Part shown: positions 34,174 to 57,916 of the stretch, piece by piece
Numbering within the stretch: position 1 is the first letter of the stretch
How the letters are laid out: every line of letters starts with the position of its first letter
Assembly (NCBI GenBank): GCA_006384855.1
Contig: VCJN01003561.1
Coordinates: 310,001-374,000, forward strand
From: Tetraselmis striata
Lineage: Eukaryota; Chlorophyta; Chlorodendrophyceae; Chlorodendrales; Chlorodendraceae
Direction of reading: 5' to 3'
Length of the DNA: 64,000 nt
The notes under the pieces: model-generated
What the model saw: the letters and a program-made list of their open reading frames with translations, nothing else
The model's database searches: none
Told to the model about the DNA's origin: nothing
Position numbers and translations under genes: made by a program

Positions 34174-34179
34174 TTGCAT

Positions 34180-35470: not shown

Positions 35471-35478
35471 CGCCTGGG

Positions 35479-36565
35479 TCACGTGGGCGCCGTCGCCAGC
35501 GACCGGTTGTTCATGCGGTCCGCCTCCCCGCTGCACACCCACGAGGAGAACATGACGGCGCTGACCGTGACCGCCGCGCACGACAGCAGCACCAGCAGCG
35601 TGAACCCCCCCGACCGGTCCGCGATGAGCGCCGCGATGCCGAGCGTGACGAGCTCCGCCAGGCTGCAGAAGGACAGCTCCACGCCGCCCACCTGCGCGGC
35701 ATCGCACCTCAGTCCGGCAGCTGAGCCTCCCGCCCCCGACAAACCGCACCATGCCCACGCCCACGCCGCCTCCCTTGCAGTATACCACGGCGTACGCCAT
35801 TCGTCACGTCGTGCCTGCATGCGAGGGCTGACGCGGCCGGACCGCCGCCTGCGCAAAACGCACCGTGGACATCTCCCTCTCGCGCACATTCTGCTGCAGG
35901 ATCTGCGCGTGCGCCATGTCAAACATCCAGAGGCCGATGCGCGAGAGGATGATGAAGCTGCAGAAGACCCACACCCAGGCCGGCGCGCCCAGCAGCACCG
36001 GCCCCGCCACGCCGCCTGGTGGGGAGCGGCACCGCGCAGAGACGGAAGGGGAGCGGGGCGTAAGCGGCTGCCCAAGGCGAGGCGGGGCGGTGATGGGCTG
36101 GCGGGTGCGGCCCGGCCTGTCCCCCACCTGCGTAGTTCTGCAGGAAGCAGAGGTAGACGGCGGCGGCGGAGAGCAGGCAGGCGGCCTGCCAGGCGCAGGC
36201 TGCCATCCCGGTCTTCATGACCCCGATGCGCGGGATGGTGTAGGAGCCGACCACGGTGCCGATGAAGCCCTGCGACCGGCGGGGTTAGCCAGTGAGTCGC
36301 ACACCTGCAACTGGCCACCATCCCAAAGGCGCCGAGCTGGTAACCAACACGTCACAGACCCCTTGTCAACAGTGACCCCCAAAAGCGCCAGAAAACTTTG
36401 CGACCTGGGCGACAAACCCCAACTCTCGGTGGGTTGCAGCAAAAATGCAGAAATCACTCAAAACCAACCGTATGCAGTGGCGGTGTGGCGCTGTCAAATG
36501 TGCAGTCAGTCTCCGGCTAATAGACATTTTGGCTACGAACCGGTGTTGCTGAGTCATCGTTAACA

Positions 36566-36596
<31 letters not shown>

Positions 36597-39500
36597 AAAA
36601 CACACATAATGGCAGTCGCTGGTGACACCGCAGGTATGGAACGGTGGATCAGCCATGCGCGGTGGATGCCACCCCCCGAGGCGGGCGGGGCGCGGGGGGG
36701 GGGGGGGGGGGCGATCCTACCAGGACGGCGCAGGCGCTTCGGAACGCGGCGGTGAGCGTGCCGTTGCAGCCGGCGGAGGTCAAGAAGGCCGTCATGAGCC
36801 CGCCGGGCGACATCACCGCGTTGAAGTACAGCATGACGGTGGCGTTGCTGCGCGCAGCCCGGGAGGGGGGGGGGGATCGTGTTAACCCAACGACACATCC
36901 CCCAAGTGCTAGAGAGGGAGAGCGGGATGGAGACCGTTCATGCAGCTGCAGGTGGTTTAAGGGCATCAACGCCTCCCAACGGGGGTGCGCTGGCGAGGCC
37001 GAACGCGGCAGCGACTGTAGCGTAGATTTTGGGTGTAGCACCAAATCACAAATCAAAAGCCTAACCACTGCTTCTTGGCTGTCCTTAGACGCTGAACCAT
37101 CTAGGATACAGTCCCGTCCCTGGGTTCGCCTTTCGTTCGCATACATGCTTCACTCCTATTTGGCATGAAAAGCCATCAAAAGCGCACGCTGCCATTCAAA
37201 AACAAAAATGATGATATCTAATCTGATTGTAATTAAAAACATAATATATATGTATTATATATATGAAGTAACTTGACAGTTGAATCAGCGATGCGTCGAT
37301 TTTTCAGAAAATTCTAAAAGAACGGGTTCTATATCACTGGCCTACAGTTCCATGAATTGCATTGCCAGCGCTTTGAAGTACCAGCAGCGAGCGTTTGCAT
37401 TGCCAGCGCTTTGAAGTAGCGACTAGTCGCTACCAGAGTTTTTTTCCATTACCAGCAGCAAGTAGCGAGTACCAGCACCAGTACCTCCCAGCCGTGAGAT
37501 CGTAATCGGACGGCTGTGTAATTAAGGACCGTGGGTGGGCGGGCGGGCGGGTGGATTATAGTACTTAGTATTACATGCCAGTAGATAAGCGCTTTAGTCA
37601 TGCACCTATAGGTCCGATCCGCTGCACTATACGGGTACCCGTACGGCAATAAAGCTCACCGCCGGAAAATCGACGCTTCGCTGGATATATGTATGTATGT
37701 ATATATGTATACATGTGCATGGTATATATATGCATATAGATATACATATATATATGTATGTTAGATCTATATAAACCTTTACATGGGCCTATAATAGCGA
37801 CGTGTGGCTGCCGGAGCAGAATGGGTACATGTGTATACCTACAGCAAGACAGTGCGAAGAATATAGAAATCCGTGCGCGACGCGTAACCCCCCCCCCCCC
37901 CCCCCCCTCGGTCCCCACCCCGCCCGGCGCCCCCACCTGGTGATGACGGCCGGCTGGGAAAAGTAGGTCCCCCAGGTGGCGGCGACGTCCTGCTTCCACT
38001 GGTACACCTTGGTCTGGAAGCGCCAGTACAGGCTCTGCTTGGTGCCGGGCGTGTCGCCGCTGCCTCGCCGCAGCCCCTCCAGAATGACGGACACGCTCGC
38101 CTCCGCCGGGTCATCCGCCTTGGCGGACATCGCCTGCGGAACGATGCTCACCATCTGCGCGGGGGAGAGGCAGCCACGCGGGTGAGTGTCCGGAAAACCA
38201 GTCGGTTTTGTGGGGCGGCGTAGGGCTGCCTCACCCCAAGTTGAATCCGGGTCCCCCAAAGGTCCACAGGTGCGGACGCGGTACTAATAACACTGCAAAT
38301 AAGAGCCTCCCCTGCCCTCCAGCGGTCCAAAGTAGACTGGACTACAGCGGGACCACGGCCAACATCCTCATAGCTTGCATGCGGGCCCGATCTGAGGCTT
38401 ACAGCAAGGGCACTTGCACAGGTGCTTCGGCGCCCGAAAGCCGGTACGTCACACTTTCACGAGCAAGGCGGTTTCACAAGGGAATAGGGTTTAGAGTTTA
38501 ACCCTAGATCGCAACCATATTACCACCAGGCTGTGCATTTCTGAGGGGTCATTTCCTGAGGTGTTTTGATCCAGCTAGTGGGGCTGCTATCCTTAAACTT
38601 GACACTCCGGACTCGTTGGCGACCCCCAATGCGACAAAGTCCGGCGCCAGAGCGTGCGACGGGGTGCCGGCGAGGAGTGGTGTAAGCGCGCTAGCAGTGA
38701 AACGGCAGCAGGTGGAATCTGTTCGATTCCGCGTCTTGTCTCAGCTCTGTTTTATTCCCCCAGGAGGGATCTGTTAACGCCACCCCTGACAGATCCCTGA
38801 CTGCCCTGTCTCGCCGATGGTACTACGCCCCGGCCGTCCCTCGCTGTCCCCATCCCGGGTTCGCAGTCCCGCAGGGGACTATGCCCAATCGCAGCTGCGT
38901 GCACGGGGGCGGGATGTCCCGGGGGAAGGGGGCGGAGCAGGCAGGCAGGGGAGGCTCCTCCCGCACCCGCTGCACCATCAGGACGACCACCGCCGCGAGC
39001 GCGACGTTCACCGCGATGGTGCCCGCCACCACCGCCTCCATGGACAGCTGCGTCACGGCGTAGCCCACCAGCAGCGACGTCCCAAACTCGCTGATCTGCG
39101 CCACAGCGGGCGGACGCGCCGCCGCGCTGTCAGCCGCCCACTCGGAAGGACCAGATGGCAGTGCTGGGCCGGGGAGATGAGGGAGAAAACGGTGGGCAGT
39201 TGCGGCCGGGGGGGGCGGGGGGGGGGGGGGCGCTGACGCAGGCACTTTTGGCGCAAACACATAAGGATTAGACCGTATCTGCGCCCGCAAGGGGCCGCCA
39301 GTATGCGCATTGCTTTTGGGCTGTGGTGATGGCGTTCCCTTCGATCACCGTCGGGTGCCAGGGCGGTTGCGACAACGATGCGAATAGGAGCCTGCCCTGC
39401 CTACAATGAGACCGATGTAGACGAGCCTATAGCGGAACTACAACGGATGTTCCTACAGGTGGCATGCAGGACCGATCTGAGCCTTTTAGCTGCGGCTTCT

Positions 39501-40913
39501 TGTAGGTGCGCCGGCGCGCACACCGCTCCGCGTGAGGCACATGCATGCTACGCACTCTCAGTGTAGGTCGCTTCTATATTCTTATAGAATGCTGCTCTAT
39601 AAGCAATGGCAGCTCCGCTGCGAGCAAGCGGCGGAATGCCCTCCATCAAATCGTCAAGTGAAGCAGGAAATACACGTTTGACTCGACGGTTGAGTCACAG
39701 ACAAGCGCAATGTGCGCCATCGGATTGGAAATGAGGCCAAATCAGGGCAGCCCCCCAAAAGATGGCATGCTCCTTTGGCACTGACGAATCCACGGGCCGG
39801 GCCGGGGAGGGGAGGGCACGGGGTGCGGGGCGCTGTGGGAGGCATACCCCACCTGATCCGCACGCCGCAGGTTCCCGTTGGCCGTCGCCAGCGCATCGGT
39901 CTGGCTGGCTCCTGCCGTGCACACCCCGGACTCTTGTAAGTCCCAGATGCTGTGGCGCATTGGCAGCCAGCCATTGTGGGCAGCAGGAGGAGTTCCCCCC
40001 CCCCGCCCCCCCGGCCGGCCTGCTCGTGAAGGAGACCGCCCGCAGGGAGGGGGGTGGGGGGCACCGCACCGCAGAGGGCGACCACCCAGTCGCGCTCCAG
40101 CGCGACGTCGCTGGTGAAGGCGGAGACGCGCTCCACGACGCTGGTGAGAACGAGCGCGGGGTACAGCAGCGTGCTCTGCACCGGCAGGCCCAGCAGGAGG
40201 ATCCTGCCGGACAGGCGTACATACACACGCAGCCACGCCTCAGTCATCGGCCATGGCTCTGAGGGTGCTGATGTTGACGTGATAAAAGACCCTGCCCGAA
40301 GTGTCAGAGGTGGACTGCGCACGAAACACCAGCGGGACAGGACGAGTGTTCCTGCGGCATGCAACCCTGTTTGAGATCTATATGTAGGGTGGTTGTAGAT
40401 GCGTTGGCGCCCTACTTCACCAAGGCCAATACCAACGCCTAGGTGGGGAGAGAGCGGGGGGGGGGGGGGGGGGGGGGAGCATGCTCGGGACGGGTAAGGG
40501 GGAGGTAGAGGGGGGCACCTTTGCACGATGAGCACCGAGACGACAATGGCCACCATCTGGATGATCATCGCCAGATTGACTGCGTGCGCCCTGCACCATC
40601 AGACCAGAGGAAGGGGGGGAGGAGGGGGGGGGGGGGGGGGGGGGGGATTAGACACCCCCACCTCGCCTGTTGTTTCTCAGCCCCCCTCCCTCACCCCCGG
40701 GCCTCCATGCCGCATGCCCCCGGCTCACAGGCACACCTGTTCATCCGGTCAATGGCGGCGCCGACACTCGGCCCCGCCACAAACAGCGTGAGCTGCCCCA
40801 CGAGGCCCAGCAGCGCAATTGCGCCAAAGCCGCCGTCCGCGATCGCGAGCAGCAGCGGCTGCGCGAATCGCCAGCCGCGCTCCAGCACACAGTTCAGCAC
40901 GTAGATGATGTAC
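35479..40913 (-). CDS. ferroportin-like metal exporter, FPN3/MAR1 type (5' exon missing)
   Basis: Ten joined exons: 40913-40737, 40590-40519, 40203-40070, 39911-39853, 39095-38967, 38154-37937, 36847-36721, 36269-36128, 36015-35864, 35691-35479. All phases agree, giving about 474 residues of an SLC40A transporter. Diagnostic words: YVLNCVLERGWRFAQPLLLA, VERVSAFTSDVALERDWVV, NGNLRRADQ, MLYFNAVMSPGGLMTAFLT, SYTIPRIGVMKTG, SRIGLWMFDMAHAQILQQNV, GGVELSFCSLAELVTLGIA. Ferroportins export Fe(II) and related metals. The YFN-x-V-x-x-PG-x-LMTAFLT word matches plant plastid/mitochondrial FPN3. The first exon or exons, which should hold any transit peptide, lie above 40913 and could not be fixed (first base completes a split codon). 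Introns are full of C/G homopolymers, and one (37936-36848) holds a MITE copy. Confidence 0.85.
36566..36600. repeat. C20/A14 homopolymer pair
   Basis: A C tract runs directly into an A tract inside a ferroportin intron; a G tract follows at about 36696-36711. Confidence 0.95.
37260..37690. mobile_element. MITE-like repeat, copy 2 (in a ferroportin intron)
   Basis: Same repeat as 1025-1500, slightly shorter because of fewer internal direct repeats. It begins ATGAAGTAACTTGACAGTTG and ends CGACGCTTCGCTGGAT, with the same imperfect inverted repeats near the ends. It lies in the intron between the sixth and seventh listed ferroportin exons. Confidence 0.65.
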
Positions 40914-42123
40914 CTACCCATGGGGCCAGCGGAATAGCAAGGGGGGGGGGGGGGGGGAGGGGGCCATGTGGTCAGGCATGAACATGATGGTGAGAGGGAG
41001 AGGGAGCTGGTATGGGGCGAAAGGCAGGAAGGGGCTCACAGCAGGCCCACTGCCGCTGGGTACTTCGGCTTGCTGGTATCACGCGGGACACCAGGCTCTT
41101 GGCCCCTGGCCGCGGCCGCCACAGCCAGCCGGTGCCGCCGGCGCCGCGCCTGGAAATGGAGCGACCGGCCACCTGACAGGCACATGGACCCCTGCAGGCA
41201 TCGCCATCGCAACCTCAGCCGCAACCTGCGGTGCCCGTCGCCCATACCCGCTCGCGCGACATGTCAACAATGTTTGCTGTTAAATCAACGGCGGTTTTCG
41301 CCAAGGGGTATCTCAAAGTGTCGTCAAGACACATTGGCAAGTCTCGCTTGAAAATTTGCGCTCTGTCTGCCTGCCTGCCTGCCTGCACCCCATCTGTCTG
41401 TCTTTCTGGGGCACGCAAATGCATGTTTACGCCAGCATTCGCACGCTGTACAGTACGCCAGCTCGCCCAGGTAGCTGCCAGACCCACAGGCGTAGACTCA
41501 CCGTCAGCGGCGGCGCCTTGCCACCACCCTTCGGCGCTGCACGCTGTGGACCACAGCCTCCCGGCACCGCCCGCGGTCGAAGGCGAGGACGCGCCACCGG
41601 TCTGCAGGACGCCAACTCTGGCGCCACGACTCGAATCGTGCCCGCCGCCATCCTGTGCACTGCCGGTGCGAGAGCGGGCGGGTGGGCGATCGGACCGACG
41701 CGGGTATTGACGAGACAGCGCCTCCTCCTCGCGTTGTTATCTTTTCTGATTTTAATAATAAGAGATTTCGCTGTAACGCAGGTGCCCTCCGCTTGCTTGT
41801 CGTGGGCGAGTCTCCGGCCCTCGGGTCTATGGGGACGCCGCTGAGGGTGAAGCCACCCTGCCCTGCCCTAGTTTGTGGCGCGACAGTGAGGGTGGTGACT
41901 GTTCTTCTGGTGGCTTGCGGTGCTGCCTCCTTGGTCAGAAGAAGCCGTCCGTCGTCGCGTCGTTGCTGGATTGATGATGCGGCGCCGCGGCGGGCCGGCG
42001 GCGACAAAATTTTGAGCTGACGTGTTGTAATCCTTAGTAAACTTTTTGGTTACAGGGAGAGCGTCCGGAGAATGCACGCAAAGTACTGGGGGAGGAAAAA
42101 GCCTACATTTAAGCAGAACCCTC

Positions 42124-42723
42124 TTAGCGCCGGGCCGCGGGGCCCGGGGATGCGGCAGGTAATTGACGGCCGGCCGGTCTAAAAGATCTTCCGCCGAAGC
42201 CGAAGGGACGGCTTCCGGTGTGCCGACAGAGATATTCGGCGAGAAATATGTGCAGAGCCACAGAAAGCTTCGCAGTCCACTTCCGTATCCAGTGGGCAAC
42301 CAGGGCGGCTGGCCGGAGCTCACGCCACGAGGGGGGTTGCTTTAGGTGGCCGCTTGCGATGCCGCGCTCCGCAAGCTCCTTGAGTAGAGCGAGCAGGTGC
42401 TCGCCCAGACGCCCGCCCTCCTCGACGACGCACGGGACGAAGCGGTGTCGCCTTGCCACGGGCTGGGACGAGCAGGCGTCAACCCTAAACTTGGTTTGCT
42501 CGCGCAAGCGCGCCGCGTAGCCGGGTTGGACCGCGACTTGCGCCGCGATGGAGTTGCGGAAGACGCCTGTGACAGCAGCGTCTAGCACAAGGTGCACCCC
42601 CGGCCCCATGTAGTCAAGTTGCACCACGTCTCCCGGGCGCGTAGCGTCCGCGGAACGGAGGCCGCGCACCTCCGTTAGGACAGAGTCGCGCGGGGCCCCG
42701 GCCTCCTGCAAGATGGATACCAT
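42124..42723 (-). pseudogene. second retroelement family: endonuclease-like C-terminal fragment
   Basis: A 199-codon minus-strand frame reads LDAAVTGVFRNSIAAQVAVQ, then GYAARLREQTKFRVDAC, then RHRFVPCVVEEGGRLGEHLL, then a Trp-containing helix. The order D...AAxxRExxKF...FVPxVVEExGxLG matches the PD-(D/E)xK-type tail at the end of RLE-bearing retroelement proteins. It differs in sequence from the LINE copies in this window, so it belongs to another family. Nothing of the reverse transcriptase remains, so it is a 5'-truncated relic. Confidence 0.5.
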
Positions 42724-42894
42724 GGTAGTGGCGATGCGCGCGTGAACCTTGTGCCATGTAATCCTTAGTCATGGGCTTGTTATGCTGGTCGCTATATTTC
42801 ACTTCAATCACACCGTCATCACTTCATATAGTCGCTACAGGTATGGCGACTATCGTCTATTAATTAAAGTATTGTTCCAGGACTATACATGCTA

Positions 42895-43440
42895 TCCCGC
42901 ATCACTCGGACTTCCCCTTGCACTCAATGCGGAAAGTCCAGGAAACCCTGAGCCACCGCATTCACACGGTCCGCTTCGCAAAGCTTGCTGCGCGTATGCC
43001 TACAAGCAGCCCTGACAGCAACCGCTTCCGAGGCCGCCGCTTACGCGCTGCGACAACGTTCCCGGTGATTGATCCTCCAAGTGAAGGTCGCCTTGGTGAA
43101 GTCCGTGAGCGTTCCCCTGAGTACTACGATTCCATGTTCCGCGTTGCCGCTTGCCGCCCATTTGGCCTTCCGGCGGCTCCTGTCCTCTCCCTTGGCGAGC
43201 CATGCCCTTGTGTTTTTTGCTCCTTCTCGGTACAAGGTATGCTGCTCGTTTTAAGGATGCTGGCGTGGAATTCACTCCTTCAACTTGGGCGGTCGCGTAC
43301 ACTGATCACGTGGCACGTCGCTCTGGGGGCGACTCCAATCACGCCGCACACGAGTGGGCGGCACATGGCCTTTCCGACGTTTGCCACGACGTGAAGTCCG
43401 CTCCGGGCGTGGGTGTCCAGATCCTCACGGACCCGTTGGT
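42895..43440 (+). mobile_element. LINE copy 3, left half
   Basis: Matches copy 2 from about 27240 to 27790. It starts after ATACATGCTA (42885-42894), which is repeated as ATATATGCTA at 57917-57926, a LINE target duplication spanning 15 kb. It is cut at 43440 by the large DNA transposon and resumes at 57192. Small indels break the frame. Confidence 0.9.
43437..43440. repeat. transposon target-site duplication, left
   Basis: TGGT, repeated at 57192-57195. Intact LINE copies carry a single CGGT/TGGT at this point, so the duplication arose on insertion. Confidence 0.85.
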
Positions 43441-43463
43441 AACAGTAATTTAACCTATTTTGC
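43441..43463 (+). repeat. left terminal inverted repeat
   Basis: Starts AACAGTAATTTAACC and ends TATTTTGC. The reverse complement of 57169-57191 is identical except T to G at position 10. Confidence 0.93.
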
Positions 43464-43639
43464 GCTGTGGAATTCATTTTGCACCGTAGGGTTTGTTTAT
43501 ACCCTAGTTCCTGGGTTTACTATCAGTACTTAAGACTCACTGGTGATGTAGCTTGGGTTTGTAGACCTTGGGTGCAGTGCAGCATTCAACAGCGTGAAGG
43601 CCAGCCGCGACGCATATCCAATGTTGGTTTTGGGGCATT

Positions 43640-43656
43640 TTGTCCAAAATGGGACA
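43640..43656. repeat. TTGTCC/GGACAA inverted pair
   Basis: Short inverted repeat in the left subterminal region of the transposon, downstream of the transposase stop. Same word family as the intronic minisatellite. Confidence 0.7.
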
Positions 43657-43733
43657 AGATGAGGCAATGAAATCAATATTTATTATGATTATTACATCCC
43701 GCGGCTAGCTAGCCACAAGACGTTGCTGATAGT

Positions 43734-46700
43734 TTATTCGTTGAGCATCCCCAACTCAAGCAAGTCCTTCTTCGTGGCTGCGTTAAACTTGACGACTCCG
43801 CCGGGTTTGCGTTGCGCTGGGGTGGTTGACATGACGTGGACGCAGTTGTTTCGTGGCTGGCTGATTTGCCACCCAGTTTGCGCATATGTCTTCACGACTT
43901 GGACGCTTTTACCGTACCACTTCTTTCTGACCATGGTGCCGTCCTCGTTGAACACCTCTCGACTTCCCGACGCGTCGTGGATGGCCTTCGCGTACGACAG
44001 GGGGACGGCTTCAACAAGCTTCCAAGGAAGCGTCAGGCACTTCTCCCAGCTTGTGTCAACTGGCTTCTTCCCTCCTTTGTCTGCGCGTACAACCATAGGG
44101 GCATGAGGGGTTTGCCCTTTGCATCGGCATGGAAGGGCTCGTATACGGCCACGGTCAACGTGTCTTCGGTAGTCTCGCGCGACTTCACAAGCCCGATGAC
44201 AAATCTCGACTCCCAATCACCAAGAATTTCAGGACACTTGTCTTCCTCATGCACCTAACGATGACCAAGACCGCGAGCTATGTTAGTCCCGAGCGAGACG
44301 CCACGCCGTTTTTGTCCCAGCTGGGACAAAATAACAAGCAAGGTAGAAGAACCAAATTGTTTTGTCCCGTAAAGGACAAAAATGACAAACAATGGGACTC
44401 ACATCGGAGACGTCGATGACAACGAGGTTCGAGCCCTTTGCATCGCTGGGCGATGTGTTGTCATGAAGCCTCTCCTTGGCGCCGGCGTGAACTCCCCGGA
44501 AGGCGCTGTCATCTTGAAGCACTTGAGCACGAACCTCGGCTTCAACGCGAGCGGCTTCGGCATTGTTGAGGTCTGCGTTGGTAGCCATCGTGTGACGTGC
44601 CTCAGCAGGCGCGGTCTGCCCGCGCTCGCGCAAGAAGTCGTCAACTTCCTCTTTCCGTTGCGGCCAGAACCCGGAGAAAGCTGCCGAAGGAGCAGTTTGC
44701 ATCTCATCCAAGTCGTCGAGCAGATTCTTCCAGCTCTCGCGCTCGACTGGGGAGAAGTGCCACTGGACCGCCAGGTCCGTGATGTACGACCTGACCTTCT
44801 TGAAATCATCCAAGTACCTCCGGACCTTCACCGCGTCGGGCTTCTTTTTGTCGCAGAGAGCGTACAAAAGGGGCCGGCCCGCACGAATCTCGGGCGTCCC
44901 AGCTGGCGCGCTCTTCAAGATCTGCACTGGCTCAGAAAGCGGTGTGTTGGACCACAAGGCGGTGCGCAACGAGCCGCCAGACGCGGCGGCGTCGTCACGG
45001 GTGAACTCGAATTTGTGCGGCTTACTGATGTCCTGAATGTGGTCTTGGAAATGGGGCCTTAACCACTCAGAGAAGTCGAGGGAGAATGAGAGCTCAGCAA
45101 TCTCCGGAGTGGGCGAGAATGCCTTCGCCACCAAGTCAAGAAAGGCCTCGATTGTGTAGGCGGAGCTGCGAGATAGCGCAAGACTGATGCGGCTGAAGAT
45201 CTGGTCAACCCGTTCATGAGTGTGCCCGACAGGCAAGAAGACCAAATGAATGACGTCGCAGATGCCGATAGACACAAGCCAATTGCAGAGGGCCGCCACG
45301 TTCCTATTCTTGTTCTCCCTGACGGTTTTGTCCATCTGGATTCTGATGTACGGAATCTTTCTACCACGGTGTTGAATTTCCTGCATCGCAGATCAGATTT
45401 CATCAGTCCATGGCTACCCGACAACCACGGCGAATCTATCGGGAGGCTAACGAGCTCACCTTCATGATCGTGATCCATATTAGAGTGCACGTCGTGGACG
45501 AATCGTGGGGGATGGTGTTGGTGTAGTAGTAGATGTCGTCCGGGCGGTATCCGTCGTACTTCACACAGGTGAGGTGGTACTTGAGGAGCATGTCGGGCTT
45601 CACAGTCTTGGGGATGCGAACCCAGTGAGGCAGCAGAGTCTTCGCGGAGTCCATGCTATCAATTTCGAAGAAGAAGAAGTTTCCATGGCCAAGGCGCGAC
45701 TGGAAGACGGCGTTGTTCAGATCCCTTCGTTCCTGGCGCACTCTCTCGAGGTGTACCTTCTGCTCAGCTCTGACCTGACGCCTCACCAGCTGCTGATGTT
45801 GACGGTGCACTTTACGTTCCTCTGGCGTCATGTCCTTTGTGCAAATCTCGCGAGCTTGGTCTCTGAGTGCTTTGCCCGCCGCGCATATGGGACAGTGGCT
45901 GAATCGCTTCACCTTCGGCGTGGTGACATCCGGGAAGTCTTCCTTCCAAGTCCGGCGGAAAGTGTCGAAGGATGCGAGCTTCACTTCGCTCTCGGTAGCC
46001 AAATCTACAAAGGGGCAGGGGCATGATAGGTCGGTATACAAATAAGGTATCATAATGCGAGACAGAAAAGTTCGGTCTAAAGTGGGTCGAAATAATTATA
46101 TCGGTAGTTGGTGAATAATTCTGTAATCAGCATGGCGAAACAATCTGTCATTAGTGTGACAAAACGGTTTGTCATCAGTGGGACAAAACTGTCTCTCAGC
46201 AGTGGGACAAGACGTTCTCTCTGCAGTGGGACGATATCGGCTAATTATGTGGGACAAATACTTTTGTGGTCGGTGGGACGAAACGGTATGCCATGAGCGG
46301 TGCGAAACGTTCTGTCATCAGTGGGACGAAATCGGTCCGGCGTCGGTGGGACTAAACGTTCTGGCGATAGCGGGACGAAACGGTTTGTCATCAGCGGGAC
46401 GAAACGGTCTGTCATCAGCGGGACAAAACGGTTTGTCATCAGCGGGACGAAACGGTTCGTCATCAGCGGGACAAAACGGTTTGTCATCAGTGGGACGAAA
46501 CGGTTTGTCATCAGTGGGACGAAACGGTTTGTCATCAGTGGGACGAAACGGTTTGTCATCAGCGGGACGAAACGGTCTGTCATCAGTGGGACGAAACGGT
46601 TTGTCATCAGCGGGACAAAAACGGTATGTATTTAGAGGGACGAAACGGTTTGTCATCAGTGGGACAAAACGGTCTGTCATCAGCGGGACAAAACGGTATG

Positions 46701-47670
46701 TCATCAGTGGGACGAAACGGTCTGTCATCATCGGGACGAAACGGTCTGTCGTCAGCGGGACGAAACGGTGTGTCATCAGTGGGACAAAATGGGCCTCACC
46801 ACGGAGAATGGCGTTGTCGTCCTCGGCCCACGACTTGTAGTAGTAGTAGACGCAAATCTTGGTCATCCAAGGAGGTAGGTGCTTCTTGAAGGTCTCGCTG
46901 TTTCCGTCATGAAAAGGCATGATCTCGACGTGACCGAGGTCATCCGAGAAGAAGTGCTCGAGAAACATGCGCACATGCTCCCTCGGTCCGGTTTGTCTGC
47001 TCTCGTATTGCTTGCGCTGCATGATGTACGTGGGTTCGTTATCCACCACCGACCGCTGGATCACGAGACGTCTGTGTTTCGAGACCTGATGCAAGACCTC
47101 CCACGCACGCCCACACGTGTAGATGGGGCCGCGATGATCGAAAGATCGCAAGTAGCCACCGTGATCGAACATGTAATCAACTTGTAATCAACGAACATGT
47201 AATCACCGTGATCAACATGTGATCAACTTGTCGGATGCCGACTCGTAGCCGCCCCTGAGAACCTGAGCGAGCCGGTCAAAGGAGCGGTTCTGATTGCCAG
47301 AGTATACGGTCAACGCACGGTCCAACACGGCATCAACGAGGGCCTCTCCGCACTGTGTGTATAGCTTGTGCACGCACTTGCGCGAACAGCATGGCGACTG
47401 ATCGCTAGCCTCCTTGGCGAGCATGAGGCGGATACAATTGCGAGAGGTGCGCTTGCTGATCAGAGACGAGACCTTGCCATTATCGCTTTCGGCGACCTCA
47501 TCGGAGCCCTTGCCCCACGTGTACTTCCTTTTCTCAGGCTCCTTACGATCACTTGCACGCGCGTCGCAATCACACGAGTACCCGCTGCGGCACGAACACG
47601 TCGGTAATGTAAGTGTAGTGTCCGACGCGCCGGATCCTGGAGAAGAGGCCATGCTTTCGACCGCCGCCAT
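43734..47670 (-). CDS. DUF7869-like transposase of the 13.75-kb element
   Basis: Five exons: 47670-47217, 47180-46800, 46004-45460, 45380-44403, 44254-43734; about 960 residues. The N-terminus has a Cys-rich patch (CSCRSGYSCDCD). The middle has CPICAAGKALRDQA and a basic helix, then FEIDSMDSAKTLLPHW. Exon 4 opens with IRIQMDKTVRENKNRN, then FLPVGHTHERVDQIFSRIS. This D ... D-x-x-x-RENKN ... GHTHExxDQ-FS order is the hallmark of the DUF7869 family of presumed DDE-type transposases. Candidate acidic residues lie near 394, 477 and 516-519. The intron at 46799-46005 contains minisatellite array 1. The exon 1/2 boundary is weak (a 36-nt intron in local repeats). The last exon needs a one-base frame change near 44080, so either the final 110 residues are lost or the assembly has an indel. 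Confidence 0.75.
44310..44331. repeat. 22-bp perfect palindrome
   Basis: Centre CCCAGCTGGG, flanked by TTTTGT and ACAAAA, in the last transposase intron. A related inverted pair TTTTGTCC...GGACAAAA lies about 30-50 bp to the right (around 44362-44382). Confidence 0.95.
46108..46790. repeat. 24-bp minisatellite array 1
   Basis: About 27 units with core GGGACGAAACGGTTTGTC followed by ATCAGT or ATCAGC. Units at the left (46108-46300) are degenerate. The array lies wholly within a transposase intron (46799-46005). The 24-bp period leaves every frame open and produces artificial octapeptide repeats on both strands. Confidence 0.95.
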
Positions 47671-48216
47671 GCAGCGCGGGGCGAGTGGGTGGGGGGGGGG
47701 GGGGGAAGGACTGTGATCTGTGGTGAGGAAGAGTGACGGCCGATGACCGTTCTCGGACGGGCCGTTGACCGGGGGGCATAATATCCAGCTACGGGTCAAA
47801 ATAATTGAACCTGATGACTCAAATACCGTATTATTTCGTGTTTCTTTCGTATGTCGGAAATAGTTCTATACTAGTAAGTACACCCGAGTCCAATCCAAGG
47901 AATATATCATCCCATGAAGGAATATTATTGCCACGCCACTGTACTCTCGTCCCGTTATGACTCTCGAGTAGGGAATATTTTATCTTCCTGTAATAGTAAT
48001 ATATAGTCGCAGTAGTTAGCCTTGTATATTCGTCGCGGTGCAAAATACATGAACCTGATGACGACGACGAGGTACACTATAGTGTGCGCACGCGCGCCGT
48101 TGGTCCAGCAGGGGTCAGAGCGGCGGCAGACAGAAACCACGTCATTTCCACCTCTACCTCACCGCTTCCCACCAAGAAACCCGCTCATCTACCGCGTCAA
48201 CCTACCTACCGCCAGA
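47671..48216. promoter_or_regulatory. shared upstream region of the two transposon genes
   Basis: The transposase and methyltransferase-like genes start back to back, 546 bp apart. The gap holds a G16 tract at about 47691-47706 and a direct repeat GAACCTGATGAC at 47807-47818 and 48051-48062. A bidirectional promoter is inferred from layout only; no core promoter motif is clear. Confidence 0.45.
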
Positions 48217-51200
48217 ATGGCGCCGAAGAAGAACGAGCCTGCCAAGGACAAGGAAGACAAGGACGACGCCACCCCAGGTGAGTTGCGCGCGCGTACAGTA
48301 GCTGCCTGCCTGCTCGACGCGTGTTACGGCCAGATCTAGCGAGTTCGGTTAGGGTTCACTGTAGAAGCGGTGTAATCTAGGACCACTCGAGGTGTAGGCA
48401 GACGAGTGGCAGCGTACAGTAGCCGCCTGCCGGCTCGACGCGTGATGCGGCCAGATCTAGCGAGTTCGGATAGGGTTCCCTGTAGAAGCGGTGTAATCTA
48501 GGACCGCTCGATGTGTAGGCAGACGAGTGGGAATAGAAGCCCAAACGAGACGAGCGGCATCAGGGTCCTGCAAGGTAGTATTACGTCCCGTCGAGGCAGC
48601 TGCGGCAAGCAGTAAGGATGCTAATTGGTGGTGGGAGGGGGTGGGGGTGAAGAGCGGCCAGGGGGAACCTCTGCTTGTACTCCGCCGTAAGGAGTGGTTT
48701 AATATTAGTGTGAAGCGCAGTACTTAAAGACATTGCATTATTAAACCGCAGTACATAATGTATTGAAAATAGTTTTGTCATCAGTGGGACGAAACAGTCT
48801 GTCATCAGTGGGACGAAACGGTTTGTCATCAGTGGGACGAAACGGTTTGTCATCAGTGGGACGAAACGGTTTGTCATCAGTGGGACGAAACGGTTTGTCA
48901 TCAGTGGGACGAAACGGTTTGTCATCAGTGGGACGAAACGGTTTGTCAGCAGTGGGACGAAACGGTTTGTCATCAGTGGGACGAAACGTTCTGTCATCAG
49001 TGGGACGAAACGGTTTGTCATCAGTGGGACGAAACAGTCTGTCATCAGTGGGACAAAACGGTTTGTCATCAGCGGGACGAAACGGTTTGTCATCAGTGGG
49101 ACGAAACGGTCTGTCATCAGTGGGACGAAACGGTCTGTCATCAGTGGGACGAAACGGTCTGTCATCAGTGGGACGAAACGGTTTGTCATCAGTGGGACGA
49201 AACGGTCTGTCATCAGTGGGACGAAACGGTTTGTCATCAGTGGGACGAAACGGTTTGTCATCAGTGGGACGAAACGGTTTGTCATCAGCGGGACGAAACG
49301 GTCTGTCATCAGTGGGACGAAACGGTCTGTCATCAGTGGGACGAAACGGTTTGTCATCAGTGGGACGAAACGGTCTGTCATCAGTGGGACGAAACGGTTT
49401 GTCATCAGTGGGACGAATCGGTTTGTCATCAGTGGGACGAAACGGTCTGTCATCAGTGGGACAAAACGGTTTGTCATCAGTGGGACGAAACGGTTTGTCA
49501 TCAGCGGGACGAAACGGTCTGTCATCAGTGGGACGAAACGGTCTGTCATTAGTGGGACGAAACGGTCTGTCATTAGTGGGACGAAACGGTCAGTCATCAG
49601 TGGGACGAAACGGTTTGTCATCAGTGGGACGAAACGGTCTGTCATCAGTGGGACGAAACGGTTTGTCATCAGTGGGACGAAATTGTTACAGCCCCCTTAG
49701 GACTTAGGCCGAATAGACGTCTAGCCATAGATAGTCCTAAGGCAGGAGCTGAGTCTAGGGCCCATTGCTGGATCGTTATTCCACACGGCCAGGAATAATG
49801 AGCGGAGATTTGGGAAAAGGGATTCTTACAGTACCGGAAGCCGGTAACCTGGGTGACTTGCCCGGCGGTGGTTTTGCCGGCCTATTTATAGTCGCTGGTT
49901 TCCGTCATTCCGTGCGCTGTGTACCGATCCAATTTCCGCCACCTGTGCTGCGTGTAACTACTAGACTAATACTAAAATCGACGTGTGCGGTCCTAATCCG
50001 CGGCCCGTCGCTATTTTAGTAACACACAACTAACTACAGACAGGTTCCTAGCACCTTCGTCTGTCCGCAGCACAGTGATATAATATTTATCTACTATTGC
50101 TATAGCAAATGCTATAGCGTTCTAGATGGTTCCAGTAGGTTCTAGTACCTACTGGTAACACGCTCCTAAGGCAGCGCTCTATTTAACGCTAGGTATTTTA
50201 CCAGCGCGCACAACAATCGCGCTCCTGCTGGTACGCAGGCGTAAGTACAGGTTACTTGCACCCCATGTGGGTACTCGTAATACTGTCCTGCACTACTAGT
50301 CGCCTGGTAGTCGCTCGTACTGACGCCTCGTCGTCCTCGTACCAGTACTTCGCCTTCACTTGTACTCGCACTCGCAATGCTCATACTCGTACTTCGCTTG
50401 GCTTGTACTCGTTCTCGTCCGCCTCAGTCGCCAGTTCTTCGCTCCTTCGTCGGCTCCCGCAGTACAAAGTACAGCAGTGTAGAGTACATAACAAAATGGT
50501 CTGACAGAATATGATATTAATAGGTCGAAGGTCCAAGCGGACATCAAAACCTACCGAGAAAGCAAAAGAATTCGATGCGCTCGGAGCGCTAGTCGGGAGA
50601 AAACACAAGGCGTCATCTTCTGTGCCCGAGCAGCCGGCTGCGAAGAAGAGCCGTGCAGCCTCAGCTTCTGCAGCTGGAGCCGGCGCTGAGGCATCAGGTA
50701 ACCCCTGGAAACCGAGCCTTTTATAGGAGGTAGAGTGCCGGCTTACGGCACGCACTCGCAAGGAGAGAGATTGGCCGCCTTGCGTTTGAGGGCCCGAATC
50801 AAGAGCGGCCAGGTCCTCTCAGATGCTCAAATGCAGACAGCGCGAAGGCTAATGGATTACGAAAAGCTCATGCAAGCTTACTATCAATCAGGTCCTTGCC
50901 TCTCCAATCACATGATTTTTGTGAGTGCACTGTGTCATATTGACATTGTTTGAAATCATGTGCGTTGACAGGTTCGAAAGGACGAGCACATGAGCCAGTA
51001 GCGACTAAAGCTTCAAACGAATCCAAGGGGAAAGAAAAGGTTTCAGAGACGATTGTGACTCAAGGTAATTGTGACTGAAAGTATCAATCCCTGCCTTTGT
51101 GAGTGCACGGTGTCATATTTACATTGTTTGAAATCATGTGTGTTGACAGGTTCGAAAGGACGCGCAAATGAGCCAGTAGCGACTAAAGCTTCAAAGGAAT

Positions 51201-54200
51201 CCAAGGGAAAAGAAAAGGTTTCAGAGACGATTGTGACTCCAGGTAATTGTGACTGAAAGTATCAATCCCTGCCTCATCACTCCCTTCGATTACTTTCTCG
51301 TCAAGGAGTTATCTGACGTTCCAACAGGTAAATTGGCGCAGGCAACCGCGTCGGAAGCAGCTGGTAAATCGGGATCCCCAGGTAAGAAAAATCACGCTTG
51401 GCTTTGATGGTGTATGGCGATACCGTTCAGTAGTTAATCGTGACGCCCACCGCAGGTGTGTTGAGTACTCTCTACTCATTCTTTACAGGTTCCCCAAATC
51501 AAGGCTCTTCTTTGTCTAAAGGCCCATCTCAAGTACCGGAAACAGAGCCTGAGCCTGAAATAGAGCACACTGAGCCGGAGCCGGAGCCCGAGCCGGAGCC
51601 TGAAACAGAGCCCAATGAGCCCGAGCTAGAGCCTCGACATGAGCCTGAAACTGAGCCAACTCAGATGGAGCCCGAGCCGGAGCCCGAGCCGGAGCCCGAG
51701 CCCACTCGGCTTGACCCGGAGCCAGAGGCCGAGCTCGAGACTCCAGCGCCGACTACCGGGCAAGCCTCTGGTTCTGGAGCCTCTGGTTCTCGAGCCCCTG
51801 TTGCCGAGGCTCCGAGAAGGGTTCCTGAATTCCTCAGTATGTGCACGGATGAAGAGGTCTTCGGCACAGAGGAAGAACAGAGGCAATGGGCGGCAGAGAA
51901 GCGTAAGCAAGCTCTCGACATCACCGGCACTCCCGGACCCGAGAGGAAGACAAAGCTGATGACGGTCGCCTCTTACGACGACTTCTTTGACGAGAGGGAC
52001 GGGTCCCAAGAAGATGACTCCTACAGCGACTTTACCTCAAGGAGCTGGACTATCCACTGGTTCAAGAACGCAAGTGCTGAGGTACAGATCTATTTGTACA
52101 TCGAATTGCACAAGGCGAGCCTGCTGACTGGCAAGGACTTTTTCGATGATCCGAAGGGGCCACTTCTCGCGTGTATCGGAAAGATCAAGGACGTCGAGCT
52201 GGACTCGGCCGGAAACTACGAGGTGAGTAAAGCTTGTATGATGTCTGAATTCGTGTCAATGTCGTGTTTCAATAAGTATTAATATTCTTGTGCTTGTTAC
52301 CGCAGATATCTCTTGAACCTTATCGCTTGACAGTGCACAAGGAGTACATGATCGATGTCAGCTTCGAGAGGTTGCTACTACACGCGACCCAACCGCCACT
52401 CTCCTTCCAACCGCGGTTCCAGTCTTACTACGCATGGACTTTGGTCGAGCGCAATGTGCTGGCGCAGGCGCTGACAGGTTTCGCGTCTGGTCAGATTGAC
52501 ATCGATGACTTGGCCAACATTGACAAGGATTTTAAGAACGCGCTTCAATACGTCAACACGTTGGCCGTCCCGCCGGCCTTGAATGGCTTCAACAACACCG
52601 GTGCCGTCGACTGGATCTCTTACAGCCACCTCAGAGTCGAGATTGCTGATCCAGAGGTGAAGACATCTCACGTTGGCGACATCAACACGTTATACGCCGA
52701 CAGAGTCAACCTCGTGGTCGACAAGGATACGGGGCTGCCTTACATTTTCAGCTTCATATCCGATAAGTTCGTCGCTCCGCCGCCGGAATTTGAATTCCGT
52801 TCCCCAAAGCTGCAAGACTGCAATATGGTGGCGCAAAGCTACAAGGTAAAAGCCTATCGCGACCTGTTGTACCTATCCGGATCAGATATGTGTAGTTACA
52901 TATAAATCAATACACAATGCAACTTACTGACATCCATTTCTTGCATTTGTTATTCAGAGAAATCCTTCCCTGTCCGCCGAGAATTTCTCGGTGTCCTTTC
53001 CAGTAGTCCCTAAACATCATTTTTTCTCCGATGAGTACGAGCCCCTCGCTCAGACCATGGCCAACTTCAAGGAGCTAGTCGCAGCACACGAAGGCGGGGA
53101 GAACCCGAGGTTGGCGGATTCAAATTCCTACAAGCCAGAGATCGACGTCATCGTCGAGTTTCTTCGCGACCACGCCGCGCGTCAAGCCAACATCGACGGC
53201 AGCCACAGACGGGAGGCGAAGCGCATGGTGAAAGAAAACTACCCGGAAATCTACAACGCCAACAAAGGCATCCACCTCACGTCGACTAAGATGTACATCG
53301 GCCTCTCGCCGGAAGTCTGCCGCTACATGTCTATGAAGCTCAACGAGGCGGGTCACACCGTCGTGGGAGACACGTCGATGCACAAACTCCTGGTGAGTGA
53401 CCCATTCTCCCAAATTACTATTTAGCTAACCGTGGCAGTAAATAGGCGTAAAGTGTGACAAAAGTCGTTCTGTCGTTAGCGGGTTAAAAATATGTGACAG
53501 TGGGACGAAACGTTCTGTCATCAGCGGGACGAAACGGTCTGTCATCAGTGGGACGAAACGGTCTGTCATCAGTGGGACGAAACGTTCTGTCATCAGCGGG
53601 ACGAAACGGTCTGTCAGCAGTGGGACGAAACGGTATGTCATCAGTGGGACGAAACAGTCTGTCATCAGTGGGACGAAACGGTCTGTCATCAGTGGGACGA
53701 AACGGTCTGTCATCAGCGGGACGAATGGGTTGGTCATCAGCGGGACGAAACGTTCGGTCATCAGTGGGACGAAACGGTTTGTCATCAGTGGGACGAAACG
53801 GTTTGTCATCAGTGGGACGAAACGGTCTGTCATCAGTGGGACGAAACGGTTTGTCATCAGCGGGACGAAACGGTCTGTCATCAGCGGGACGAAACGTTCT
53901 GTCATTAGTGGGACGAAACGGTTTGTCATCAGTGGGACGAACCGTTCTGTCATCAGCGGGACGAAATGTTCTGTCATCAGCGGGACGAAACGGTCTGTCA
54001 TCGAGGTACAAGCGTTCGGAATTTTGAAATCGGTGCAATTGTTTCTGCAGAACCTTCGCAGATGTTTCGAGAGCTGGTATGCAGAACAGGATGCAAATCG
54101 CCCCGGCTTTAGGGCACTTCCGCAAATCAGGGTAGTGAAGGAGTTCAAGAAGTCTGAAGGTCTTCAAGTTGAACTTGAGAAGATCGGCATCAAAGATGAG

Positions 54201-56843
54201 AAGAGCAGCGAGTTCTCAAATTTGATTGACCTCTGCTCGCGCCCACAACGGTGAGCTGCGTACATGATGAAAATTTATCGTGTTGTTAATGCATCTAGAT
54301 TCTGACAAATGATTTGCGCAGTGTTTTTGAGCCCCTTGAGCAGATTTCTGAAGCCTACCGGCATGTGGACCTCGGGGTTCGAGGATGGGACGAAGCCAGA
54401 ACCAAACTCGGAGACCTATTCGTGTACTACCGGCAAGAACTCGATAGAGTCAAGCGCCTCAATAGCGGCAGACAACTCACCCAGAAGGAAGTGACCAAGG
54501 TTTACGAAGCAATTCGGAAGCCTATCAATACAATCCTCGATAACAAGAAGTACGGCTTCGGGAAAAACAGAGCTCACTTCCGAGTCGCCCTCATGGAGGT
54601 AAGTTGTGACCGACCCCAGTGTCTTAATCATATGGAATACTATCATTGATTCCTTTCTCCGTACTGAAGTTTGTTTTTCGACCCAGGATGTCGCCTTTGG
54701 ACCCCATGCGCCCTGGCTAGACGAGCCGTCTCTTGCCAAGCAGAGCGACAGCGCGGATCTCCCTGTGGGCCAGATGTACCTGGTGGTTGGACTGCTCATC
54801 CAAGGCGAGCACAGTGTGACCCCGAGCCTCTACGAGCTGGTGGATGACATAAAGCATGCCGGCAACAATGGCCCCATGGCTGTTACGCACACCAACGCGG
54901 AGTGGCTCGCGATGATTGAGACCTGGCGGTTTCGCGATCTCTTGCGTCGAGCAAGCATCAAGCTCATGAATGCTATTGGCACGGCAAAGGGACACGGACA
55001 GGAACTCCAACTGCTGACGCCGGACGAACCAGCCAGGAACTGGGGGAAATATCTCTCGGACCACATCATCGAAATGGATGTGGATGACAAAGTGTCGGAT
55101 GAGCAAGCGGCCGCTCGCCTTGACGCCATCACCAAGTTCATAGCCAAGGTTGATGACCTCGACCCAACAGGCTTCCCTAGAAAGTTCCAGGATTTGTTCA
55201 AAGGTGCTCATCGCTCCGGTCCGTTGATGGTCTTGCTGACCCCTCCTGCCAGATGGGGGGACATGAAATCCGCCGATTGTCTCACACCACTACCGGTTCG
55301 AGAGCATATCGCGGCCACCAACACCACCATCAGGAGTGAGGCGTATCGCATCAAGAATCAGATGCCGGACTTGGTCATCTCCTTCTTCACAGAGTTTGCT
55401 CTTCTGGCATGTGCGCCGGAGCTCATCGCGGTTTCCGCTCCGAATGTTTCTAATGAGCTGTGGATATCGATGAAGGTAACTAAGATCTTGTGCAACCACA
55501 AATGCTCTTCTGAATTTTCGTTGTGAGCTATTAACCCGAATATATTTCCTACCACACACAGGCCGCGGCACTTCCGGTGATGCCCAAGGGCTGCGAGGTC
55601 GACAAGGATGACAAGGTGTGGTTGAACAATGAGCTTTGCAAGACTTGCATTGTGGAGGGGAACTTCAAGGCTCCCGCGACAAAACAATTCGCCGCGGACG
55701 CCATGTCGGCAGTTCGTGCCAAAAAGGCAACAGTCTTCATTGCCGACGCGCTTTTCGGAGCTGGTTCGCACACATGGGACTCGAAGGATGCTGCGTGGGG
55801 TACGGACGACTTCAACGACGTGTTTGCTTTCGCCAGGCAAGACAACCCCAACAACCCCGGTGCGTACTAGATGACTGTGCTTTCATTTATCTCATTCCCG
55901 ATTTACCCCCGCGCAGGCAGTTGAATATCCTGACTGGATCTTCTGACGTCCACACTGCTCTCGATGGGTGCCATTTCTTCATTCACCTCTCGGACCAGCA
56001 ACTTGGATCCGCAATCACAGCCGTTCAAAAACAAGCTGAGGACCTCATCTATCACGTCCTGACTTGGGCCAAGGATTGCGGGATGAAGATGGGCAGCTCT
56101 CTGCGTCACGACGCTGAGTACTACCTCTACGTCAGGAAGCCCCCGCCAAGCATCATAGCTGACAACATCCGTTTCGATGATCCCCGAAGGTGAGATTTGA
56201 TCCGTGGAAAATAGCCGGCTTGTATATTCTACTCGCTAAGCCGGTTGTGCCTTTCCAGGTTCTCTACATCCATCATGTTGGGTCACTTCAAAGACAGTTC
56301 GAAATTGAAGGACGAGAACAGACAGACGGTGAACAAGTACCAAAAGCCTATCGCTCTCTTCGCCAAGCACCTTAAGATGGCGGCAACAGACGGGACAACA
56401 ATCGTCGACGTCACAGCCGGAACCGGGACAACCGCGGTGCGTGAGGGGTGCAACCCGGGTGAGTGTCTTAATGGGGTCAGCATAAACAAATTAACGTCTT
56501 GTGCGGTTTGCCACGCCTTTTCCAGGTCGCTGCGGCCTTTTCCGTGTGGTGGGACCATATGGATCATACCTACTCGTTCACACATAGGAACTTGAAGATT
56601 ATCCTCATTGACAACCAAAAGACGCAAATCGCTGGGATGAAGTCCAGGATGACCTCATGGTTCAAAGAGAAGCCATGGGACGAGACTCAAAGACTGCGTC
56701 CAAGTGACTTCGAGAAGTGGCCGGGTCTACCCCTTCCAATGACCGAGTTAGAGGAGCGGGAAGAGCGTGCAGCGGCGGAGAAGAGGAGGCAAGAGGCGGC
56801 AGAGCGCCGAGGGGATTATGTGATCGAAGATGATGATATGTAG
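48217..56843 (+). CDS. large nuclear-type protein with C-terminal DNA-methyltransferase-like domain
   Basis: Sixteen exons: 48217-48277, 50524-50697, 50763-50891 (or from 50727), 50972-51064, 51150-51242, 51328-51381, 51489-52222, 52306-52845, 52958-53392, 54051-54250, 54322-54598, 54687-55475, 55562-55836, 55917-56189, 56259-56436, 56526-56843. Phases are consistent and there is no stop, giving 1,540-1,552 residues. The N-terminus is Lys/Arg-rich and disordered, then a Glu-Pro repeat region, then about 1,000 residues of unknown fold. The C-terminus resembles amino-methyltransferases with motif IV before motif [13 protein letters not shown] in place of DPPY, then [11 protein letters not shown], then [14 protein letters not shown] (SAM-binding motif I), then IILIDNQK. 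The catalytic Pro-Pro-Tyr is absent. The last 45 residues are a charged helix. One intron is GC-AG (55837-55916). Introns 1 and 9 hold minisatellite arrays. Confidence 0.78.
48776..49686. repeat. 24-bp minisatellite array 2
   Basis: About 38 highly regular units of the same core as array 1. It lies in the long first intron (48278-50523) of the methyltransferase-like gene. Most variation is T/C at one site (GGTTTGTC or GGTCTGTC) and GTGGG/GCGGG. Confidence 0.97.
50921..51260 (+). repeat. 178-bp tandem duplication containing an exon
   Basis: Exons 50972-51064 and 51150-51242 and their flanking intron sequence are near-identical copies 178 bp apart. Both exons are 93 nt and phase 1-1, so the duplication adds 31 residues (SKGRA ... 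EPVATKAS ... SETIVT) without a frame change. Confidence 0.92.
53500..54004. repeat. 24-bp minisatellite array 3
   Basis: About 21 units of the same core, inside the intron 53393-54050 of the methyltransferase-like gene. It ends about 45 bp before the acceptor. Confidence 0.97.
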
Positions 56844-56872
56844 TACAATTCCGCAAAATTAGCCGCTCATAT

Positions 56873-57110
56873 GTTTTGTCCCGGCTTTGACAGAGTTTCA
56901 GCCCCGGACGGCACAAACTGCTTGTAGCCATCACGGCCCCCGCACTTCTTTTTGTCCCAGTTTGGACAGAGTTTCAGCCCCCGCGATGGCGCAAACTTCT
57001 TGTAACCATCCCGTTTCCTTCACTCTTTTGATTTGTCCCTGCTTGGACGGAATTGGTTTCCCCGACTTGGCACAAAATGAATCAACCGGCATTCATATTA
57101 GCTTTCAATC
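56873..57110. repeat. subterminal tandem repeat with TTTGTCCC words
   Basis: Roughly 2.5 units of about 75-80 bp, each with TTTGTCCC, then TTTGGACAGAGTTTCAGCCC, then GGCACAAACT and TTGTAACCATC or TTGTAGCCATC. It lies between the methyltransferase-like stop and the right terminal inverted repeat. Confidence 0.75.
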
Positions 57111-57168
57111 CCACAGCTGCCCCCAAACCCTAATTTAGACCTAACCACAATGCACCGCGTGTCTCGGG

Positions 57169-57191
57169 GCAAAATAGGTTACATTACTGTT
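57169..57191 (-). repeat. right terminal inverted repeat
   Basis: Reads GCAAAATAGG then TTACATTACTGTT on the + strand. It is the complement of 43441-43463 with one mismatch. Confidence 0.93.
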
Positions 57192-57916
57192 TGGTGCTTG
57201 TTTCTCTTCCGAAGGGCAGCGACGGCCGGCCGGCCGATGTTGGGCTTTTTGGGTATGGTGGTATCCGCGGGAACACGGCTGCTGTCGATACCACCATGCC
57301 CCTATCCTCGGCGTGTCAAGCTCGGATCCAACGACTGCATTGCGGGCTGCAGAGCGCCACAAAATCCAGAAGTATGACGAGGGTGTCCGAAACGCCGCCG
57401 GCATGCTTCGCTTTGTTCCTTTCGCCGTTTCCGAGTTCGGCTCGCTGACCCCGCACGCTGAGGCCTTCCTGGTGGAGCTCGCGAAAGCTAGCCACACACA
57501 CACTAGCCAAAAAATCGGCCAGCTCTTGTCTGCGTGGCGCCGCCATTTCTCCTTGCTCATCAACATGGCACATGCCGACAACGTTCTTGGCGGGGTCGCG
57601 GCCGCGCGCGCGGCACGTGATGGTGCTCCTGCGCCTGCGTCGCGTCGCTCGTCGGAATGTGTTGCTATGACCCGGGTCATTGGCTGCAAGCGTCCTCGCC
57701 GCGGCTGATGGCCTACCCCGGGGCGGTGGTCCCTTTGGTTACTGGTAGCTTGGCGACTTCGTGGTTCGCTTGGCTTCCCCTTGGTTCTTGGCTCCCTTGC
57801 CTCCTGCTCGACCTTGGATTCAGGCGTATGTCTTTTTTTTTTTTGGCAATCTTTCATAGTTGCTGTTAGTTTTGTTTGTAGTGCGCATTTGTTAAAGCCC
57901 TGATGTAAAAAGTCAC
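57192..57916 (+). mobile_element. LINE copy 3, right half
   Basis: Continues copy 3 exactly where 43440 stopped (TGGTGCTTGTTTCTC onward) and runs to a short A tail at about 57906-57911. The outer target duplication ATATATGCTA follows at 57917-57926. A one-base deletion near 57297 breaks the frame. TGGT at 57192-57195 is the right target duplication of the inserted transposon. Confidence 0.9.

Follow-up and report, generated by a model that had tools for sequence, protein, structure and literature searches.

A DUF7869 transposon with a methyltransferase-like passenger gene, nested in a dispersed repeat of the green alga Tetraselmis striata

Tetraselmis striata carries a family of large cut-and-paste DNA transposons that is young, abundant, and recently amplified. 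One of its copies occupies positions 43441-57191 of a 64,000-nucleotide stretch of genomic DNA (the window; contig VCJN01003561.1 of assembly GCA_006384855.1, positions 310,001 to 374,000 of the forward strand), where it forms an insert of 13.75 kb with exact borders. Two divergent multi-exon genes are present in it, as the original prediction from the letters of the window had stated; one encodes a DUF7869-type transposase and the other, called the passenger here, a methyltransferase-like protein. The insert is very probably a non-autonomous copy of an amplified DUF7869 family that moves by the mechanism, and carries the type of cargo, proposed below.

Direct reading bore out the predicted coordinates, the 23-bp terminal inverted repeats (TIRs) with one mismatch between the two ends, and the duplication of TGGT. 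The TIRs begin AACAGTAAT. An empty site, which the prediction had suggested looking for in copies of the host repeat, was also found. When the two flanks were joined with a single TGGT, the joined sequence matched uninterrupted repeats in all 40 scored places (1059 candidates) with 97-98% identity; 39 of these matches spanned all 124 bases and the remaining one 122. The duplication of the window insertion is thereby fixed at 4 bp, and the nesting of a DNA transposon is borne out by the TIRs, the duplication, and the empty site.

Across the 224-Mb T. striata genome, a search for the 23-bp terminal pattern that allowed one mismatch gave 475 matches (250 forward and 225 reverse), while its reversed control gave 0; therefore, the TIRs are not a product of chance. 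The 600-base left end was recovered with 99% identity in all 39 other scored places (40 scored of 427 candidates) and the right end with 97-100% identity in all 40 scored places (403 candidates). Pairwise identity among 11 aligned copies is 97-99%. Both ends were read in 19 copies, namely the window copy, 10 copies fetched whole, and 8 more; in C2865 and C1496, the right end was not seen within the fetched stretch. Exact 4-bp duplications flank 12 of these 19 copies (TGGT, TACT, GAAC, TAGG, GCAT, GAAG, GTAC, ACAG, TTCA, ACAT, CTAT, and ATGT). The features of the window copy are collected in Table 1.

Table 1. Features of the transposon copy and its borders, in window coordinates
Feature	Position	Strand	Basis or remark
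Target site duplication TGGT, left copy	43437..43440		Flanks joined at a single TGGT match repeats without the insert
Left TIR, AACAGTAATTTAACCTATTTTGC	43441..43463	+	
Single dyad TTTTGTCC-N7-GACA near left end	43638..43656	+	
Transposase exon 4 with stop codon	43734..44254	-	Holds 1-base loss of window copy
Dyad pair in transposase intron 3, at 44310 and 44360	44310..44378	+	First is the palindrome TTTTGTCCCAGCTGGGACAAAA
Transposase exon 3, QMDxTVRENKNR and VGHTHERVDQIFS	44403..45380	-	DUF7869, 7e-36
Transposase exon 2, first catalytic Asp region (putative) IDSMDSAKTLLPH	45460..46004	-	
Array of dyad-containing 24-bp units in transposase intron 1	46136..46789	-	
Transposase exon 1	46800..47670	-	Holds 45-base insertion of window copy; joins agree with gene model P0002
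Possible alternative first passenger exon	48217..48277	+	Same start in gene models P0069, P0072, P0074
Array of dyad-containing 24-bp units between genes, 5' to modelled passenger start	48774..49682	-	
Passenger gene, 15 coding exons, 1,553 amino acids	50511..56843	+	Uninterrupted in window copy; exons joined by eye
Passenger exons 1-5	50511-50697, 50736-50891, 50972-51064, 51150-51242, 51328-51381	+	
Passenger exons 6-10	51456-52222, 52306-52845, 52958-53392, 54051-54250, 54322-54598	+	
Passenger exon with ParB-like motif IDGSHRREA	52958..53392	+	No profile match
Array of dyad-containing 24-bp units in passenger intron 8	53498..54002	-	
Passenger exons 11-15	54687-55475, 55562-55863, 55917-56189, 56259-56436, 56526-56843	+	
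N6/N4 DNA methyltransferase-like domain, exons within span	55562..56623	+	PF01555, phrog_67
Two dyads (56874, 56950) near right end	56874..56968	+	
Right TIR	57169..57191	-	22/23 complementary to left TIR
Target site duplication TGGT, right copy	57192..57195		

The insertion is flanked by a dispersed repeat of high copy number, which contains a short reading frame. We take this frame to resemble the C-terminal part of a long interspersed nuclear element (LINE) protein, a resemblance that Pfam did not confirm. The host had been predicted to be a LINE; its nature as a high-copy repeat stands, and its LINE identity is not confirmed. No LINE or reverse transcriptase domain was matched by Pfam in three readings of the flank (one match was at chance level, 0.1), and none was matched in the three upstream plus-strand frames of 34000-43440 with stops read as X. 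The repeat copy at the flank may be truncated at its 5' end. Another copy of the element, at C1870:370654 (L051), is inserted about 125 bp from the window site in the same dispersed repeat. From its 561-amino acid frame, this copy was considered as a second DUF7869 family; this was rejected, and it is a further copy of the window family.

In other copies, the transposase gene consists of four coding exons on the minus strand and encodes 956 amino acids. The spliced product agrees with the independent gene model P0002 (98% identity over 99%). It matches PF25273 (DUF7869) with E 1.1e-43 and 149.5 bits against a gathering score of 26, which upholds the predicted type of transposase, and no Pfam transposase family other than DUF7869 matched it. 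The 956-amino acid frame is uninterrupted in five of the eight copies that show all exon landmarks (C1001, C154, C821, C1441, and C809) and is broken in the window copy, C663, and C1460; the remaining three of the 11 copies (C2669, C2782, and C226) were not scorable. Compared with all 10 other aligned copies, the window copy has lost one base in the last coding exon and carries a 45-base insertion in the first, and its frame ends after 152 amino acids. Because the frame is broken, the window copy is not self-mobile by its own transposase, contrary to what had been predicted for it.

Transposase homologues are concentrated in Tetraselmis (54 of 66), and the remainder comprises one sea cucumber protein and 11 others; a profile search added one Symbiodinium protein as a DUF7869 relative. 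In the genome as a whole, every one of the 150 PF25273 matches that were scored (548 candidates) lies above the cut-off, and 76 of the 150, counted by hand, have a stop-free frame of 376 amino acids. PF25273 gave no match in any of 14 control genomes. Residues D385, D388, D468, the GHTH motif, and D510 (P0002 numbering) show no variation among the 17 relatives aligned, which include the sea cucumber and metagenome proteins; this alignment leaves out six Tetraselmis gene models of the first alignment, most of which are without part of the region. The E of GHTHE varies in the first alignment and is thus not invariant, so D510 is the better candidate for the third catalytic residue. The residue after D468 in exon 3 is K in the window copy and N in all six other copies translated through that region. 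Gene model P0047 joins DUF7869 and a methyltransferase domain in a single 533-amino acid protein, which is probably a deleted copy or a model error.

The ratio of nonsynonymous to synonymous differences (pN/pS) of the transposase is 0.25, with a pS of 0.019; both values are pooled over all, non-independent, pairs of the 11 copies and carry no significance test. When distinct changes were counted against the majority, the ratio was 0.26 with 0 stop changes. These values point to purifying selection on the transposase. In the proposed mechanism, the DUF7869 protein would be a DDD transposase with an RNase H fold, in which D385/D388, D468, and D510 would form the catalytic triad. It would recognize the 23-bp ends together with a subterminal palindromic site, TTTYGTCC-N7-GACA, to which its binding is putative, and would make 4-bp staggered cuts. 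The window copy would have been moved in trans by the transposase of other copies, or it would have decayed after insertion.

The passenger gene lies opposite the transposase, as predicted. The C-terminal part of its spliced product scores 32.3 bits against PF01555, above the cut-off of 26.7, and the match covers profile positions 46-199 of 221; a longer piece scores 30.7 bits. The C-terminal domain also matches phrog_67 with 2.4e-9. All 14 passenger homologues are Tetraselmis gene models (P0067-P0080), and GSHRREA is exact in 12 of them. In a landmark scan, the full passenger frame was found in none of the ten other copies: C1001 and C1460 have large passenger deletions, and the other copies have differing exon landmarks, stops, or both, so the reading of their passenger is in part tentative. 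A viral or phage origin of the cargo was considered and rejected. Among 50,697 phage records, tblastn with the 281-amino acid C-terminal piece gave no match. A passenger pattern was fitted by 194 stretches of viral contigs, of which 0 were confirmed, and the single transposase pattern used gave no match there.

Active N6/N4 DNA methyltransferases have a motif IV of the form (D/N/S)PP(Y/F/W). This usual motif was not seen in the passenger, and all 14 gene models have ADALFG at about the place expected for motif IV (DPPY), with the placement judged by eye. The prediction that the element carries a DNA-modifying protein therefore holds for the methyltransferase domain, and modification of DNA is doubtful with the usual motif IV missing. 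In the favored reading, the passenger is an accessory protein that derives from a methyltransferase and interacts with DNA, and its catalysis is probably weak or absent. Active methylation of the element by its passenger, as PMC12477816 proposes for similar algal proteins, would fit the PF01555 score above the curated cut-off on the spliced piece and the motif I-like stretch. However, the occurrence of ADALFG in all 14 proteins and the start of the PF01555 match at only position 46 of 221 make this explanation unlikely.

Several observations weigh against a cut-and-paste family with a methyltransferase-derived cargo. The 4-bp duplication was not found in seven of the 19 copies with both ends read (C2669, C663, C1441, C809, C226, C2449, and C2110). 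Solved structures gave no useful match to the transposase, so the putative RNase H fold is assigned to DUF7869 from motifs. For the passenger, the 14 gene models span only 862-1,042 amino acids, compared with 1,553 in the spliced model, and the first part of exon 13 is absent from all of them, which makes the exon 13 join uncertain. The motif I stretch AGTGTT occurs in only 4 of the 14, and PF01555 matches 4 of 13 gene models (best E 8.9e-6), with P0067 at 24.8 bits, below the cut-off. No profile matched a ParB-like domain in the passenger, and the resemblance consists of the short motif IDGSHRREA. Finally, the passenger pN/pS is 0.58 and its pS of 0.038 is twice that of the transposase (pooled pairs, 11 copies); against the majority, the ratio of distinct changes is 0.57 with 4 stop changes. 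This high ratio and doubled pS indicate either that selection on the passenger is weak or that its history differs, being older or mixed. The synonymous divergences of passenger and transposase, 0.038 versus 0.019, look as if the two halves of the element had separate histories.

The subterminal site is part of a larger set of palindromic dyads. Within the element, the 19-bp dyad TTTYGTCC-N7-GACA is present 5 times on the plus strand and 71 times on the minus strand; the other 50 kb of the window have 0. Three arrays hold 69 of the 71 minus-strand dyads, and the other two are the palindromic partners of those at 44310 and 44360. Single dyads recur at five set distances from the ends, three on the left (about 197, 870, and 920 bp) and two on the right (about 317 and 241 bp). 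The 11 aligned copies have 53 of the 55 such sites, the exceptions being the 870-bp site of C2782 and the 317-bp site of C1460. The half-motif was counted 8 times outside the arrays, where a first-order Markov model predicts 0.9 and never gave more than 5 in 200 draws; the rest of the window has 3. Array length differs between copies, and the third array is absent from C1001 and C1460. No stop codon interrupts the 24-bp units on the minus strand, where they translate into a repeated octapeptide, RFVPLMT(D/N/E); the inspected gene models exclude them. We know of no earlier report of such palindromic arrays; no literature search was aimed at them.

With less certainty than for the transposase mechanism, it can be proposed that the internal arrays are putative binding sites of an element-encoded protein, either the transposase or the passenger, and that such binding might tune element dosage or chromatin. 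The arrays could also be neutral minisatellites without function, grown by slippage from the subterminal site. Their copy number differs between elements, and they are located in introns and between genes, where a change in length is tolerated. We nevertheless lean slightly away from this possibility, since isolated sites that share the core persist close to the left and right ends of the 11 copies and since the arrays of a related family are built on another palindrome.

This related family belongs to the further DUF7869 genes of T. striata. A search with P0053 recovered such genes, including a family whose identity to P0053 is about 53% and whose frames reach 766 amino acids. The locus L053 (C1345:52000-61900), read over 9.9 kb, is 31% identical to the transposase of the window family, and its arrays consist of palindromic units 25 to 28 bp long, for example TGCGTCCATGCTGTGGATGGACGCA. 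In 7.3 kb of L053, 12 occurrences of GTCCAT-N5-7-ATGGA(C/A) were counted, where 0.005 are expected; the window has 0. Parts of L053-type arrays recur in many copies of the related family, to which L052 also belongs. The right end of L053 was placed at a point within 12 bases of which 34 of 43 matches break off, and a query holding this end gave 626 candidate places (40 scored). A passenger was not found in the stretch of L053 that was read, which does not reach its left end. A short match to the passenger C-terminus beyond the right end was taken as a stray fragment. The presence of arrays in both families suggests that these elements share a way of self-regulation.

The position of the element among known superfamilies was assessed from its ends, its target duplications, and its transposase. 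With regard to the general features of cut-and-paste DDE/D transposons, it has TIRs, and 12 of 19 copies have a 4-bp target duplication. The Sola superfamily has 4-bp target site duplications, with which the T. striata element agrees. KDZ elements (Zisupton and relatives) have long target duplications of about 8 bp. Membership in this group was rejected; the profile check that had been proposed for DUF7869 and KDZ favored DUF7869 and gave no KDZ match at E up to 5, and the duplications are of 4 bp. EnSpm/CACTA elements, including Chapaev, have CACTA-like termini and were likewise rejected; no EnSpm-type Pfam family matched and the termini are AACAGTAAT. PiggyBac and Kolobok target TTAA according to PMC9587614, and these were rejected with 0 of 12 duplications being TTAA.

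Two explanations of its affiliation were weighed. The element may be an ordinary member of Sola1, in which case DUF7869 would be the Sola1 transposase domain and Sola1-1_Ec32 of Ectocarpus a close counterpart. The 4-bp duplications other than TTAA, the large size, and the methyltransferase passenger opposite the transposase, as described for Sola1-1_Ec32 in PMC12477816, are all consistent with this. Nothing found speaks directly against it; the assignment is tentative, and we hold it possible but not favored. Alternatively, DUF7869 elements might form a separate superfamily outside the Repbase superfamilies, as these are listed in PMC4455052 and PMC9587614. Only DUF7869 matched among the Pfam transposase families, the TIRs begin as given above, and no paper containing the term 'DUF7869' was found in the open literature searched. 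However, absence from Pfam names and from the open literature is weak evidence, and a separate superfamily is rather unlikely. A more far-reaching version appears quite improbable. In it, each family of such a superfamily would have its own arrays of palindromic sites read by an element protein, and in the present family a methyltransferase-derived protein that has lost catalysis would mark or control the element through them, in a manner similar to that of bacterial ParB at parS clusters.

Sola1-1_Ec32 is the nearest described system. According to PMC12477816, it is an element of 21.5 kb from Ectocarpus in which a gene for a protein with ParB-like and N4/N6 methyltransferase domains lies opposite the transposase, and green and red algal cases of such ParB-like and methyltransferase proteins are cited there. 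As far as can be compared by description, both are giant algal DNA transposons with an N4/N6-type methyltransferase gene opposite the transposase. They differ in size and cargo: the passenger of Sola1-1_Ec32 has 1,104 amino acids and a ParB-like domain, whereas the T. striata element measures 13.75 kb and its modelled passenger has 1,553 amino acids, a ParB resemblance that is not supported by a profile, and an altered motif IV. As the arrangement of cargo and transposase is already in print for Sola1-1_Ec32 (PMC12477816), it is not new in kind. The T. striata element is a further case of methyltransferase-like cargo in algal transposons, and its altered catalytic motif speaks against the idea that such cargo always methylates the element's own DNA.

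The passenger is related to the N6/N4 methyltransferases of phages and bacteria through the phrog_67 match of its C-terminal domain, and its match to CcrM is weak (0.0012-0.0013), far under the cut-off. Unlike these enzymes, it is much longer and contains introns, its motif IV is altered, and its remainder is without a convincing family match. The transposase has its relatives among the DUF7869 (PF25273) proteins of animals and protists, with examples in Apostichopus, Symbiodinium, and metagenomes. Those other proteins were met as single proteins, whereas the T. striata element has defined ends, duplications, and an empty site. A domain of unknown function that ranges from algae to sea cucumbers is now tied to a defined mobile unit with hundreds of young copies, which makes its role as a transposase directly testable.

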